Below, piece after piece: positions 10,302-15,370 of a stretch of DNA of 64,000 nucleotides (position 1 is its first letter; each line of letters opens with the position of its first letter). The notes below the pieces were generated by a model, which did not search any database, was not told the DNA's origin, and saw only the letters and a list, made by a program, of their open reading frames with translations. The DNA lies in contig JAGGUN010000037.1 of assembly GCA_021158465.1 (NCBI GenBank), forward strand, positions 62,001 to 126,000, written 5' to 3'. A program made the translations under genes and the position numbers. Source of the DNA: a bacterium. Its GTDB lineage: Bacteria; UBP14; UBA6098; 4484-93.

Positions 10302-12728
10302 ATGGATGAGCAGAAAGGGAGGGTAATCCCTCGCAATATTGAGGATGAGATGCGGCGTTCCTATATTGACTATTCTATGAGTGTCATTGTTGGTAGGGCG
10401 CTTCCCAATGTGTGGGACGGGTTGAAGCCTGTGCAGAGGCGGATACTTTTTGCGATGTATCAGATGGGAAATGTGTACAACAAGCCTTACAAGAAATCAG
10501 CGAGGATTGTGGGTGATGTGATAGGGAAGTATCATCCTCATGGTGACCAGGCAGTATATGATGCACTTGTCAGGATGGCACAGCCTTTTACGATGAGGCT
10601 TCCGCTTGTTGATGGACAAGGGAACTTTGGATCAGTGGATGGGGATATGCCAGCGGCTATGCGGTACACCGAAGTGAGGCTCACGAAACTCTCTCAGGAG
10701 CTTGTTAGAGACATTGAGAAGCAGACCGTAGATTTTGCTCCCAACTATGATGGCTCGACTACCGAGCCTGTGGTTCTGCCCACACTTTTCCCGAACCTTC
10801 TGGTAAACGGTGCATCTGGGATAGCTGTTGGTATGGCCACGAATATACCTCCGCACAACTTGGGTGAACTGTGTGATGCTATAATTTACCTTGTTGACCA
10901 TCCTGATGCAACCGTGGATGAGCTTATGCAGTTTGTGAAGGGACCGGATTTTCCAACGGGCGGAATAATTGTCGGGATGCAGGGTATAAAGGACGCCTAC
11001 ACCACGGGGCGGGGCAAGATAAGGGTTCGGGCATCCGCCTTTATTGATGAGGAGAGAGGAAGAAACAGGATTATCATAACCGAGATACCGTATCAGGTCA
11101 ACAAGGCTAATCTCGTGCGTGAGATAGCCTCTCTCGTCAATGAAAAGAAGATTGATGGTATTTCCGAGATTCGTGATGAGTCTGACCGTGAAGGTCTCAG
11201 GGTGGTAGTTGAGCTGAAGAGGACTGCTCCTGCGAGGGTGGTCTTGAATAACCTGTTCAAGAGAACAGGTATGACCACGACCTTTGGGATAATAGTGCTC
11301 GCCATCGAGAACAACCGCCCTGTTCTTTTCAACCTAAGGACATATCTTGAGAGCTTCATCGAGTTTCGGCGTGGTGTGATAGTTCGCAGGACGATATTTG
11401 ATCTTAAGAAGGCTGAGGAACGTCTGCACATCTTGGAGGGGTTGAAGATTGCGCTTGATAATCTTGACACTGTAATATCTGTAATACGCAAGGCAGACAG
11501 TCCTCGGGAGGCGAAGGAAAAGCTCTGTGAGGTGCTTCCTCTATCCGAGCATCAGGTCCAGGCTATATTGGATATGAAGCTTGCTAGGCTCACCGCCCTT
11601 GAACAGGATAAGGTGGTGGATGAGTACAACTCAACCAAGGAATTGATAAAAGAGCTGAAGGAGATTCTCGATACTCCTGAGCGCGTCAGAGAGATAATTA
11701 GGTCCGAGACAGAGAGGATAAAAGCTGAATATGCCACTCCTCGCCGTACGCAGATAGTAGAGGGTGAAGGGGAAATTACCGATGAGGAGTTGATAGCGAA
11801 GGAGAATATGGTTGTTTCGCTAACTGCTGCAGGTTATGTGAAGCGGACGCCTTTGTCCGTGTATCGTACGCAGCACCGTGGTGGCAGGGGAAGGGTTGGT
11901 ATGAGTACCAAGGAAGAAGACTATGTGAAAGACCTGTTTGTCGGTTCCACGCATGATATCGCACTCTTCTTTACCACGAGGGGACGTGTCTTTTCCCTGA
12001 AGACATACCAGATTCCCGAGTCTGGCGCATACGCCAAAGGGATGCCTATTGTGAACCTGCTCGACCTTACTCCTGGTGAAAAGGTCACAACGATGCTCTC
12101 AATCAAAGAGTTTGACGAGCAGACAAGTATTGTCTTTGCCACGGCAAACGGTATGGTGAAGATGACACCGACAAAGGAATATTCCAATGTCAGGAGGCGC
12201 GGGATAATCGCTGCAAACATAGATGAGGATGACAACCTTGTATCCGTTGCCCTGACCCGCAAGGAGGGAGATATCTTCATCGCCACAAGAGAGGGCAAAG
12301 GGATACTTTTCCCGATAGGTGAGCTCCGTGATATGGGCAGGGCTACACGCGGTGTGAGGGGGATAAATCTTCGCCCAGGTGATTCTGTGGTTGGGATGGT
12401 GATAGCGGAGGAGGATACAACACTATGTTTTGTAACATCTAACGGGTTCGGCAAGAGAACGAGGGTATCAGATTTCCCTGTTCAGCATCGGGCAGGATAC
12501 GGGGTCATTGCTGTCAGAGTCACGGAGAAGACAGGTGAACTTATTGGCGTTATTGCACTTGATGGTAAGGAGAGGCAGATTGCCCTAACGACCGACCAGG
12601 GGATGATTATACGTATTCCCGCTAGTGAGATACCCGTAATCGGAAGGGCGACCCAGGGAGTCAAGCTTATATCGCTTGCACCGGAGCAACAGGTAACCTG
12701 TGTCGGTGAGGTCAAAGAGGAAGAATGA
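10302..12728 (+). CDS. gyrA: DNA gyrase subunit A
   Basis: GyrA carries the breakage-reunion activity that introduces negative supercoils together with GyrB (not in this window). It has 808 residues with the catalytic Tyr122 in [10 protein letters not shown], at exactly the E. coli position. The quinolone-resistance region is [17 protein letters not shown], with Gln83 where E. coli has Ser and a conserved Asp87. The C-terminal beta-pinwheel holds a GyrA box QHRGGRG (from about residue 524), which separates gyrase from topoisomerase IV. It is monocistronic: its own promoter lies upstream and a small terminator-like hairpin downstream. Confidence 0.97.
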
Positions 12729-12752
12729 GACAACAATCGTCTCTACTTTTTT
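12727..12752 (+). terminator. Possible short intrinsic terminator after gyrA
   Basis: GAGAC (12727-12731), a 7-nt loop and GTCTC (12739-12743) form a 5-bp stem that begins in the gyrA stop codon and is followed by TAC and six T. The stem is short, so strength is uncertain. Confidence 0.4.
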
Positions 12753-12861
12753 GATATTGGGTGAAATTCGGCTTGAGGACTTAACAATTGAACTTTTTAC
12801 ACATAAGGGAGAATTAGTAGTTGTATTAAAGATTATTATTTAAAAAATGGGGGATGTAAAT

Positions 12862-13038
12862 ATGGAAAGGAAAGAAATCTGTAATGAATGTGGAAGAGAT
12901 GTGAGCTGGGGCAGTGGGTTATTTGTAAATAGAGTTCTTGATTTAAATGATTATGAGACGAGGGTGGAAATGAATAAACCTTTTCCAGAAGGTGATTATA
13001 TTTGTCGAGAATGTGAAGAAAAAAATGCTCGAAATTAG
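12862..13038 (+). CDS. Zinc-ribbon-like small protein
   Basis: 58 residues with two CxxC pairs, CNEC near the N terminus and CREC near the C terminus, typical of a zinc ribbon. I chose the ATG at 12862 because GGGGGA (12849-12854) sits 7 nt upstream; an ATG at 12847 would add five residues but lies inside that ribosome site. The stop overlaps the start of the nuclease gene by 14 nt, so the pair is probably translationally coupled. Base composition is much richer in A+T than gyrA, which points to acquired DNA. The function is unknown; a DNA-binding or accessory partner of the nuclease is an inference. Confidence 0.6.
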   Translation: MERKEICNECGRDVSWGSGLFVNRVLDLNDYETRVEMNKPFPEGDYICRECEEKNARN

Positions 13039-14044
13039 GGAATCACAAATAGAGGATATATTTGCTACACAACTTGATGAAACGAAAAGAATACTCTCGA
13101 TTCGGGGAGATATTTCTCTAATTGCTCGTCAGAAAAGATTACCATCAGGTGGGATTTTAGATTTACTCTTTCTTTCATTGGATAGTCTATTGTTGGTGGA
13201 AGTCAAAGCGGTTGGAAGTAAAAAAATATTTTGTGAACAAGTTGTTCAATATCGTAATGATCTTCTATCTCTTCAAAAAAGGAAAGAGATTCCTAATTTT
13301 CCTATCCGAGCATATTTGGTATGTCCTCAATTTTTAGATGAACACAAACAATTTTGTAAAGAAAACGATGTGGTACCTGTTTTATTTTCGCCTTATGAGT
13401 TATTAAAAAATTATTATTTCAAGGTTAAGGCAATTTCAAGTTTGATTGGTTTAAAGCCTTCGAATCATGGCTTATGGAATCTTCATTTACTTAATCGAAT
13501 CCTTTATTTAATCCGAGAGGAGACAACGAGTGAGGATCTCTCAAGGTTATCAAATCTTTCAGAAAGTACTGTAAGTAGTTACCTCAGCTTATCAACTGAA
13601 TTAGGTCTCACAGTTAAAAAGCCGAAGGTTAAGCTTACAAAATTAGGTTTACGCTATGTTGAGAGTCGAGAGAAGGATAAACCAATAAATTATATCAGTA
13701 ATTCTCAAACTGAGGTATTAAAGGATTTCATTGTTCATAATCCATTTCGTAGCCCAGCTATTTTTGGAATTTATTCAGCAGTTGAAACTATTTTTGCTCT
13801 ATCAAAAAATTTCTATCCTGTTCCGTTAAAAGAGGCAGTTAAATATTTTACCTATTTAACGGGGAAGCACAGCCAATGGGCAGCAAAAGCCGCAAAGGAT
13901 GCGTTTATAATGTATTCAAATTATGGGATTGAATTAGGGCTTTTAGCTAAAGTGGGACAGAACTACTATCTCACTCCAGCAGGAATAAGGTTTATCTTAC
14001 TTCTTGAATTGAACAGGGCGATTTTATTTGTGAACTCGATTTGA
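13025..14044 (+). CDS. PD-(D/E)XK nuclease with winged-helix-like region
   Basis: 339 residues from the ATG at 13025 (a GTG at 12992 is possible but lies deeper in the zinc-ribbon gene). The N-terminal third has the catalytic pattern Asp46 in GGILDLLFL and Glu59-x-Lys61 in LLVEVKAV, plus a downstream QVVQYRNDL helix, as in NucS/DUF91-type and other restriction-like nucleases. A middle region (TSEDLSRLSNLSESTVSSYLSLSTELGL) reads as a winged helix. A C-terminal region of unknown fold ends in a second helical segment. A+T-rich codon use and the neighbouring restriction-enzyme remnant suggest a defence or mobile origin. The substrate is unknown. Confidence 0.65.
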   Translation: MLEIRESQIEDIFATQLDETKRILSIRGDISLIARQKRLPSGGILDLLFLSLDSLLLVEVKAVGSKKIFCEQVVQYRNDLLSLQKRKEIPNFPIRAYLVCPQFLDEHKQFCKENDVVPVLFSPYELLKNYYFKVKAISSLIGLKPSNHGLWNLHLLNRILYLIREETTSEDLSRLSNLSESTVSSYLSLSTELGLTVKKPKVKLTKLGLRYVESREKDKPINYISNSQTEVLKDFIVHNPFRSPAIFGIYSAVETIFALSKNFYPVPLKEAVKYFTYLTGKHSQWAAKAAKDAFIMYSNYGIELGLLAKVGQNYYLTPAGIRFILLLELNRAILFVNSI

Positions 14045-14064
14045 AAATAATAAAGGTGTAGAAA

Positions 14065-14292
14065 GTGAAGAAAACATACAGCTCTGATGAAGAATTTTGG
14101 TTTAACGAAGCATGGTTATTAAGCGGTTTTAATTTTGATAGTTTTGTTCATTTATTGAGAGAGGGAATTATTCTTGTGGATATACGAATAGGACAATACC
14201 CGGATGGAAGACCACATGACCATGGCACAGGATTCAGAGTTTTACCAGATAAATTAGACTTGTGTTTTAGCAATAGAGAAAGGATAATGTGA
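14065..14292 (+). pseudogene. C-terminal remnant of an MvaI/BcnI-type restriction endonuclease
   Basis: 75 residues from a GTG with AAAGG 8 nt upstream. The segment ILVDIRIGQY then RPHDHGTGFRV matches from memory the C-terminal end of MvaI (VDIRIGAY ... THDHGTAFRI), and the preceding FWFNEAWLL ... LLREG also lines up. MvaI is about 246 residues with its catalytic D...ExK in the missing N-terminal part, so this piece should have no cleavage activity. No methyltransferase is visible nearby. It is most simply a truncated relic; a re-used small DNA-binding protein is the alternative, since a ribosome site remains. Confidence 0.6.
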
Positions 14293-14339
14293 CGGGGTCA
14301 AAGATAAATGAGTAAGATAATTGTCAAGCCGAACTCTTT

Positions 14340-14356
14340 GGCAACTTCTTTTATCC
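14340..14356. repeat. 17-bp direct repeat, copy 1
   Basis: GGCAACTTCTTTTATCC occurs here and identically at 15131-15147, on either side of the secreted-protein gene. The flanks also resemble each other (CCGAA about 10 nt upstream). Confidence 0.6.
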
Positions 14357-14395
14357 ACGAGACGCTATACGCCATGCAAAAAGAAGGAGGTTATC

Positions 14396-15070
14396 ATGCG
14401 GAGTAGAATATTTTATTGGCTGATTCTTGCCATCCTTTTTAGTGTTTCCGCTTCTCCATTAGCTTTAGCAGATCAAATTGCTATCACCGAGGATGGCAAA
14501 AAGGTTCTTTTGAAGGATGAGGGAACTTGGGAATACATAAAGGAAGAACCGAAAAAAGAAGAAATGTATGATTTTAGAAAAACTACGTGGGGAATGGGCA
14601 AAATACAGGTAAAGAAAACGGAAAAAGGTAAGATTGTAGAAGAAGATGAGAATCTATTAGCCTATCAAGGGACTGTAGGTGGACTTGACTGTTTTATTCT
14701 TTATATATTTGCGGAAGGGAAACTTGTGAGGGCAAAATATGCATTTACTGAAACTCACTCTAATAAGAACGATTATATCTCCGATTTCAATACATTGAAG
14801 GAGACTTTGACAAAGAAATACGGGAAGCCTGTTAAAGATTCGCGCATTTGGAGAAATGACCTATATGAGGACGATTATCAATATTGGGGATTTGCGGTTA
14901 GTTTGGGGCATTTAGCTTACTTTGCAGAGTGGGAAACACCTAACACTTATATAACTTTGGCATTATATGGAGAAAACTATGAGATTACACTGGCAATTGA
15001 GTATCAGAGCAAAAAACTGAAAAAGTTGGAAGAGAAAGAGAGGGAAAAGAAATCATTAGATGAATTCTGA
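14396..15070 (+). CDS. Small secreted protein of unknown function
   Basis: 224 residues from the ATG at 14396, which has a perfect AAGGAGG (14384-14390); the longer upstream frame lacks support. A signal peptide of about 27 residues ends near SPLALA. A short segment reading ITEDGKKVLLKDEGTWEY, common in small periplasmic proteins, and a lysine/glutamate-rich linker follow. The body (about 60-200) has aromatic beta-strand-like segments, and the C-terminal helix is highly charged (KKLKKLEEKEREKK). It sits in the A+T-rich patch between two copies of a 17-bp repeat, so it may have arrived as a unit. No function is recognised. Confidence 0.7.
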   Translation: MRSRIFYWLILAILFSVSASPLALADQIAITEDGKKVLLKDEGTWEYIKEEPKKEEMYDFRKTTWGMGKIQVKKTEKGKIVEEDENLLAYQGTVGGLDCFILYIFAEGKLVRAKYAFTETHSNKNDYISDFNTLKETLTKKYGKPVKDSRIWRNDLYEDDYQYWGFAVSLGHLAYFAEWETPNTYITLALYGENYEITLAIEYQSKKLKKLEEKEREKKSLDEF

Positions 15071-15089
15071 TTTTGCACGGCGCACAACA

Positions 15090-15149
15090 GCGGATAAAAG
15101 GGAAATCAGAAATTTCCCCGAATTGCCTGCGGCAACTTCTTTTATCCGC
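15090..15149. repeat. Palindromic element with nested hairpins; holds repeat copy 2
   Basis: An 11-bp perfect outer stem, GCGGATAAAAG (15090-15100) with CTTTTATCCGC (15139-15149), encloses two inner hairpins. These are GGGAAAT/ATTTCCC (15100-15106 and 15112-15118) and TTGCC/GGCAA (15123-15127 and 15131-15135). As RNA or single-stranded DNA it would form a three-way junction. The right half contains the repeat shared with 14340. It looks like a small mobile or regulatory repeat. Confidence 0.55.
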
Positions 15150-15370
15150 AAATTGTTAAAGAAACAAACAAAGAACCTCTATCGTTTTATCTTGAAATCA
15201 ACGAACGGCGCAAGAAGGCTGATAAATGGGAAACCCATAGAATACTTGTATTTGATGATGTTCTGCTGGAATTCGTGCAGGAACTGAAGAAGGCAGCAAG
15301 GTTCATAGCGGATAGGGCATTGTCTGCTGTTTTGTTCAAACAACCTACAATTGGGGTAGAACTGTTTTGA
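15098..15370 (+). pseudogene. PUR/DUF3276-like domain, start lost or frameshifted
   Basis: An open frame with no ATG, GTG or TTG start runs from a TAA at 15095 to a TGA at 15368-15370. It encodes FYLEINERRKKADKWETHR followed by ILVFDDVLLEFVQELKKAARFI. This matches the PUR-type nucleic-acid-binding domain (a beta strand with ITESR-like end, then hrIvvf..dl..F...l). The 5' part lies inside the palindromic element, which probably replaced the native start. A one-base shift in TTTCCCC (15113-15119) would join it to an ATG at 15060. Its stop overlaps the TTG start of the next gene, so it was probably once the first gene of that operon. Confidence 0.5.

Follow-up and report, generated by a model that had tools for sequence, protein, structure and literature searches.

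A predicted PD-(D/E)XK nuclease and a two-CxxC miniprotein appear to take the place of the methyltransferase-endonuclease junction in MvaI/BcnI-type restriction-modification cassettes

A two-gene pair, made of a 58-residue two-CxxC protein and a PD-(D/E)XK nuclease, appears from sequence comparison to substitute for the junction between the methyltransferase (M) and the restriction endonuclease (R) of MvaI/BcnI-type restriction-modification (RM) cassettes, breaking both genes. The explanation that we prefer, and that we hold tentatively, is that the pair is a mobile module replacing the M-R junction of such cassettes, and that its nuclease may be type IV-like and hostile to the modification that the cassette makes. 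The pair was met in the window, by which we mean the whole stretch of 64,000 nucleotides that was analysed. The initial annotation had stated that the nuclease has no methylase partner, which is misleading, as the pair sits among MvaI/BcnI-type RM remnants. The features of the locus are as follows.

12750..15250, no strand: low-G+C stretch that contains pair, remnants and another ORF (500-base windows)
12766..12822, + strand: possible 19-residue remnant of the cassette methyltransferase, from the stretch before motif I (local score, weak)
12862..13038, + strand: small partner, a 58-aa two-CxxC protein, putative zinc ribbon (ORF with ATG start)
13025..14044, + strand: predicted PD-(D/E)XK nuclease, 339 aa (ATG start; active-site conservation and model)
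14065..14292, + strand: C-terminal remnant of an MvaI/BcnI-family restriction endonuclease, 75-aa frame (PF15515 and tblastn)

The two ORFs of the pair overlap by 14 nt on the same strand (13025-13038), so that the coordinates first given for a 58-residue protein ending inside the nuclease gene were correct. Each has an alternative start, an in-frame ATG at 12847 for the small partner (63 aa) and a GTG at 12992 for the nuclease (350 aa). The R remnant matched PF15515 in a profile search (E 6e-11, 43.2 bits, profile positions 163-227 of 227) and intact plasmid endonucleases by tblastn. Since it is only 19 residues long, the stretch at 12766-12822 is graded as a possible methyltransferase remnant; its local score of 52 was reached by none of 300 shuffles (maximum 51) and by none of 186 other stretches of the window (maximum 50; methyltransferase references only), and it was absent from the tblastn output at E 0.05. 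Where an MvaI/BcnI RM system has an intact R and an intact cognate M, the window thus has a partial R and a methyltransferase scrap of at most 19 residues. The G+C content is 0.320-0.378 in the 500-base windows of 12750-15249, against about 0.46-0.53 in most flanking ones, and the pair is lower in G+C than its own locus in all 10 loci compared (at L011 by 0.9 points only). An 808-aa ORF, presumably gyrA, ends at 12728, and a 531-aa ORF begins at 15367. The low-G+C stretch also holds a 225-aa frame (14393-15070, + strand) with a sub-threshold DUF3157 match (E 3.3e-4).

We compared 22 loci of the nuclease family (the window, L002, L004, L005, L007-L019 and L073-L077). This set omits L078, where the nuclease is cut by the contig edge and has a RadC frame 5', as well as same-place duplicates (L001, L003, L006, L020-L029 etc.) and weak short matches; at L076, remnants were sought in the first tblastn survey only. 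Remnants of M and/or R, with M assigned to three families (M-i, M-ii and M-iii), were found at 15 of the 22 loci and are listed by residues of the reference frame.

Window: upstream none; downstream R 358-423 of an extended 428-residue frame, that is, from about residue 166 of 236
L002: upstream R 10-50 of 226; downstream M-iii 235-414 of 414
L005: upstream R 194-222 of 244; downstream none
L007: upstream M-iii 5-395 of 423; downstream R 39-89 of 237
L008: upstream R 8-56 of 244; downstream M-iii 257-285 and 388-421 of 423
L009: upstream M-i 2-153 of 297; downstream R 64-219 of 226
L010: upstream none; downstream R 113-274 of 281
L011: upstream M-ii 10-130 of 251; downstream R 219-277 of 277
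L012: upstream M-ii 9-74 of 251; downstream contig end
L013: upstream M-i 17-255 of 314; downstream R 38-279 of 281
L016: upstream M-i 15-132 of 314; downstream R 171-267 of 268
L017: upstream none (RadC frame); downstream M-iii 68-420 of 423
L019: upstream none; downstream R 183-215 of 281
L074: upstream M-ii 3-65 of 267; downstream R 235-277 of 277
L075: upstream an apparently complete methyltransferase of another family; downstream R 234-276 of 277

No cassette remnant was found at the remaining seven (L004, L014, L015, L018, L073, L076 and L077). Remnants occur at 14 of the 15 loci where a small partner lies beside the nuclease and at one of the seven where none does (Fisher p 6e-4). Each of the 23 M and R fragments lacks its pair-facing end and lies on the strand of the nuclease, whereas 20 have kept the far end; the comparison of pair-facing and far ends gives a Fisher p of 6e-10, which is overstated since the loci share ancestry. 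Ends were scored by eye, "kept" meaning at most 20 residues from the reference end, and the reference frames carry some residues preceding the true start. This count omits the methyltransferase scrap of the window, the upstream methyltransferase of L075, cross-matches to non-best methyltransferase families and an extra R piece at L074 (E 0.01). At L007 the contig stops about 200 bases past the R fragment, so that the far end missing there may be an artefact. Such regular sparing of the far ends fits substitution of the junction and is not expected from random decay around a resident pair. The break points differ between loci, with no common target position, and the loci involve all three methyltransferase families and both gene orders.

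Cassettes elsewhere are mostly free of the pair. A PF15515 search gave matches in 26 of 290 genomes, and 30 of the 35 matches were returned with their locus; the survey covers those 30. Near-full-length M and R adjoin each other at 14 of them (L093, L094, L096-L098, L100-L104, L106-L108 and L119; the R of L103 has an internal stop). The complete frames read comprise six M-i methyltransferases (about 300 aa) and three of M-ii. A family nuclease is present at only two MvaI/BcnI loci, both already known (L099 is the place of L013, and L114 is the window), leaving 28 of the 30 without it, and no such pair lay between M and R in the six plasmid regions opened. We found no near-identical empty and occupied cassette sites; intact cassettes without the pair are comparable only at the level of protein similarity, with varying break points. 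In the compared set, no locus has the nuclease together with an intact methyltransferase of family M-i, M-ii or M-iii. A cassette in which R alone has been lost by nature was also seen (L152:2056-3761): this MvaI/BcnI cassette lacks the N-terminal part of R, keeps M near full length and has no pair. In the host genome, none of eight PF01555 places is closely related to the cassette methyltransferases, and at least three of its other PF01555 methyltransferases are free of internal stops. Two of its PF01555 places (G000, contigs C17 and C31) have stop codons inside the match, so that other host RM loci also look decayed.

On sequence and model, the larger protein is a member of the PD-(D/E)XK superfamily of RecB/NucS type, with the D...ExK residues and a QxxxY helix placed on the predicted fold. 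The spacing of QxxxY seen here is typical of RecB/NucS-type PD-(D/E)XK enzymes. E10, D46, E59, K61, Q72 and Y76 are invariant across 15 aligned family nucleases, which bears out the D46...E59-x-K61 site proposed by the initial annotation; a second nuclease alignment includes one fragment row that begins after D46. The AlphaFold2 model (mean pLDDT 86, pTM 0.60) places a NucS/EndoMS-like domain at about residues 1-125, a winged helix at about 153-216, where a winged-helix-like middle had been expected, and a second winged helix in the C-terminal third, at about 233-339. The catalytic domain aligns with 5gke (Z 15.4, rmsd 2.3 over 113 residues) and 2vld (Z 14.9, rmsd 1.9 over 107 residues; Foldseek E 1.9e-4), residues 153-216 match the winged helix of Csa3 (Z 9.4), and residues 233-339 match the MarR-type and Rio2 winged helices (Z about 9-10). 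From these features we infer a DNA endonuclease whose winged helices would place the catalytic domain on DNA.

None of the four profile libraries searched (Pfam, NCBIfam, PADLOC and PHROGs) names the nuclease; the matches listed for it are weak (for example Lectin_N, E 0.0057) or cover winged-helix profiles in part. PADLOC-DB 2.0.0 gave no near-full-length match, the best for the nuclease being Csa3 (E 2.9e-4, residues 159-208 only), and none for the zinc ribbon. The Pfam search with the nuclease matched no homing-endonuclease profile and, at E up to 10, no NucS profile, and the nuclease did not match PF15515. Pfam and PADLOC recognised no modified-base-reading domain in the pair and no AAA or McrB profile in the nuclease or the small partner. 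A PDB sequence search with the nuclease returned a single match (E 0.47), and its model had no match in the viral structure library at E up to 1e-3. The two outcomes that would have spoken against the original proposal were therefore absent: the pair recurs in other genomes, and no housekeeping family was matched in the four libraries.

The term zinc ribbon for the small partner refers to its CxxC pattern and to weak zinc-finger profile matches below the cut-off. Its cysteines are C7, C10, C48 and C51, of which C7, C48 and C51 are invariant in the eight sequences aligned, and C10 is replaced by Phe in L005. The model has a mean pLDDT of 61.6 and Foldseek returned nothing for it at E up to 1e-3, so we claim no fold. 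A partner lies beside the nuclease at 15 of the 22 loci, being the zinc ribbon at eight (the window, L002, L005, L007, L008, L009, L074 and L075) and an unrelated protein of about 65-76 aa, hereafter the ~70-aa protein, at seven (L010-L014, L016 and L019, where the copy enters masked sequence); seven loci have neither. In the nuclease tree, the ~70-aa partner is restricted to one clade, two members of which lack it, and the zinc ribbon occurs in three lineages. In the 21 assemblies searched, the zinc ribbon was present in nine and the ~70-aa partner in seven; neither was found in G106, G108, G109, G688, G837 and G855, assemblies that may be incomplete. The nuclease is full-length in G108, G837 and G855, and in G106 its C-terminus diverges from the family. 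We infer that the small protein is an accessory that would assist the nuclease in locating or holding its target.

Viral contigs contain relatives of the zinc ribbon: 113 stretches were confirmed and 80 kept, with identities reaching 55%; in the three contigs inspected, they lie amid small unnamed genes. The ~70-aa protein has relatives in three viral-contig stretches, and the M, R and nuclease references had no match at E 1e-4 in those 83 viral loci. An orphan zinc ribbon (L147:3668-3886; G393, contig C30) is about 60% identical to that of the window over 52 residues. It overlaps the end of an unnamed 385-aa gene, itself 3' of a methyltransferase with a full-length PF01555 match. It has no adjoining family nuclease, and the solo family nuclease of G393 is on another contig (L073).

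The pair is more than a chance arrangement: four other genomes (L002, L005, L007 and L008) have a relative of the nuclease that is 61-68% identical, with the zinc ribbon adjoining in all four. Between the nucleases of these loci and the window, NG86 dN is 0.225-0.340; dS was computable in one of 10 nuclease pairs (2.24) and six of 10 zinc-ribbon pairs, with all values at least 1.09, so only the low dN is used here. Among 98 genomes of host relatives, a match was found in two, that of the host and G011, from the host's class. G011 has two copies and carries at L002 a zinc ribbon with a clade-1 nuclease and at L013 a ~70-aa protein with another nuclease that is only 38% identical to that of the window. 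A GTDB contig scan confirmed 15 loci from 138 pattern matches, two of the 15 being the G011 copies. A wider draw, seed genomes included, gave full-length strong matches in four of 395 genomes and 19 matches at E 1e-3, the other 15 being weak; a second, also with seeds, gave three of 392 (G108, G837 and G855) and 21 at E 1e-3, with the nuclease of G688 cut at a contig edge and that of G109 broken. In two further draws the seed alone was strong (1/296 and 1/301), with four and three matches at E 1e-3. These few strong matches indicate that the family is rare. Viral contigs yielded no relative of the nuclease (one scan had no pattern match, another had 66, none confirmed), nor did the phage collection; the plasmid collection yielded one (Halobaculum).

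The nuclease tree mixes several host phyla, which points to horizontal transfer; the branch of the window (100/100) groups it with G011, a Zixiibacteriota, a Neomarinimicrobiota and a Treponema MAG. Two solo haloarchaeal relatives (L004:7284-8369 and L076:5995-7062) adjoin DpdA-like transglycosylase genes of 7-deazaguanine DNA modification, a further link of the family to DNA modification; at L076, a BrxC/BrxD-like ATPase gene lies between the two. An ANME-1 copy (L018:7995-8735) is split into several frames. Whether the two genes travel together in defence islands had been put forward as a check. The pair is indeed a recurrent unit in other genomes, kept together even where the order is reversed (L009, with the zinc ribbon 3' of the nuclease), but the locus in the window is no defence island: its low-G+C stretch is about 2.5 kb long and is bounded by the 808-aa and 531-aa ORFs. 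An anti-DNA role of the predicted nuclease pair is plausible.

On the comparison of loci, the module appears to take the place of the M-R junction in MvaI/BcnI-type cassettes, breaking both genes; we propose, tentatively, that the NucS-type nuclease would attack DNA bearing the modification made by such cassettes, in the manner of a type IV restriction enzyme. The pair would then be tolerated only where the cognate methyltransferase had disappeared in that event or before it, and the survivors would carry the pair instead of the cassette core. Such a module would spread horizontally and may serve as a small defence against modified DNA. R without M is expected to be lethal (RM addiction), and loss of R alone, with M intact, should be viable. 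This is why the joint breakage of M and R matters, and since loss of R alone is seen without the pair (L152) and never with it, the pair and a live cognate methyltransferase may not coexist. The loci make this only suggestive, as the sample is small and the apparently complete other-family methyltransferase of L075 adjoins the pair on its 5' side; the modification genes beside the haloarchaeal relatives also look intact. Moreover, as PF15515 is present in only 26 of the 290 genomes, hostility to methylation alone fails to explain insertion at cassettes rather than anywhere. The seven loci with no cassette remnant, the PF01555 methyltransferases of the host genome that are free of internal stops and the lack of a recognised modified-base-reading domain also speak against this reading. 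With slightly more reserve, we would also entertain that the pair represents an undescribed class of mobile two-gene elements that hunt RM cassettes, have a swappable miniprotein and break both cassette genes in one step, thereby escaping death by loss of M.

The main rival explanation is a homing-like invader, whose nuclease would cut pair-less cassettes, after which the break would be resected on both sides and repair would copy the pair in; the element would be selfish, with defence secondary. This accounts for the cassette-specific location better than methylation hostility does, and also for the sequence loss near the pair on both sides, the constant orientation and the mixture of host phyla in the nuclease tree. 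However, the variable break points show no shared target, the broken cassettes span three methyltransferase families and both gene orders, near-identical empty and occupied sites were not found among the cassettes compared, and no homing-endonuclease profile was matched in Pfam. We consider it somewhat unlikely as the main explanation, and it could hold together with methylation hostility. Alternatively, the pair was once the regular third component of an M-pair-R operon and was kept by selection as M and R decayed. It is always co-directional with the remnants, which erode internally at, for example, L008 and L074; at L013 the greater part of M and almost the whole of R survive beside it, and the orphan zinc ribbon of L147 follows an intact methyltransferase and the 385-aa gene. 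Such decay should nevertheless hit far ends equally, whereas near ends are missing in 23 of 23 fragments and far ends in three, no complete M-pair-R locus was seen at the loci surveyed, and 28 of the 30 MvaI/BcnI loci lack the nuclease, which together make this origin improbable.

Very unlikely, in our judgement, is a toxin-antitoxin system in which a DNase toxin is restrained by the overlapping small protein, even though the small gene comes first and is overlapping or closely coupled in most loci, and two unrelated partner families are found, as in partner-swapping toxin systems. The strict form of this reading, raised by the initial annotation, is weakened by G108, G837 and G855, which keep a full-length nuclease with neither partner family found in assemblies that are possibly incomplete and may hold other partners. 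The order is reversed in L009, and the nuclease is intact both at L002, where the zinc-ribbon frame has no ATG, GTG or TTG 5' of its conserved part, and at L005, where the zinc ribbon lacks one cysteine. Vsr accompanies Dcm, and by this parallel the nuclease might once have been a companion of the cassette methyltransferase, as a NucS-like endonuclease acting on mismatches or lesions. EndoMS/NucS is indeed closest to the catalytic domain, but winged helices follow that domain in place of the NucS N-terminal domain, and the cassette methyltransferases to be served are broken; we give this repair role the least credence.

What appears new is an RM-displacing mobile nuclease module made of an unnamed nuclease and a miniprotein, and RM displacement itself is already known; we recognised no description of this pair in the literature searched, which omits most subscription journals. 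If the preferred reading is true, a module that repeatedly removes M and R together would reveal how RM addiction is overcome in nature, and the antagonism between DNA-modification systems and the nucleases that attack them could be studied in a manageable example. How partner proteins are exchanged could be examined with the two unrelated small proteins, each of which has viral-contig relatives; the nuclease family itself is absent from the four profile libraries searched.

Among known systems, NucS/EndoMS (2vld and 5gke) shares the fold of the catalytic domain, but its N-terminal DNA-binding domain is absent here, the catalytic fold starting at about residue 5 of the model. Other structural likenesses are weak and generic, namely the winged-helix DNA-binding domain of BpuJI (5hnh; Foldseek TMq 0.33, E 0.028) and SspB (6juf; Z 9.0, rmsd 3.8 over 165 residues, model residues 139-317). 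MvaI/BcnI type II RM systems (PF15515) contribute the endonuclease and methyltransferase remnants that flank the pair, whose own nuclease has no PF15515 match. According to Fukuda et al. (2008; PMC2614495), McrBC homologues have been found as inserts in RM gene complexes, likewise as a mobile two-gene nuclease unit. The same paper describes that McrBC can kill cells that gain certain methyltransferases, with death upon genome methylation, argues that it competes with methylation systems, and expects linked methyltransferases not to create McrBC targets. McrBC has an AAA+ GTPase, in place of which the present nuclease has a 58-aa CxxC partner, and McrBC is modification-dependent, whereas such dependence would be a predicted property of this nuclease. 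That paper treats the McrBC inserts mostly as helpers of type I complexes; the cassettes in the present loci are type II, of the MvaI/BcnI kind, and both their M and R are broken. An RM site at which the R gene is replaced by a PabI-family pair, reported in PMC10273834, is likewise a case in which a restriction element gives way to another at its own site; R alone is replaced there, whereas here M and R are both broken by a predicted PD-(D/E)XK nuclease with a miniprotein.
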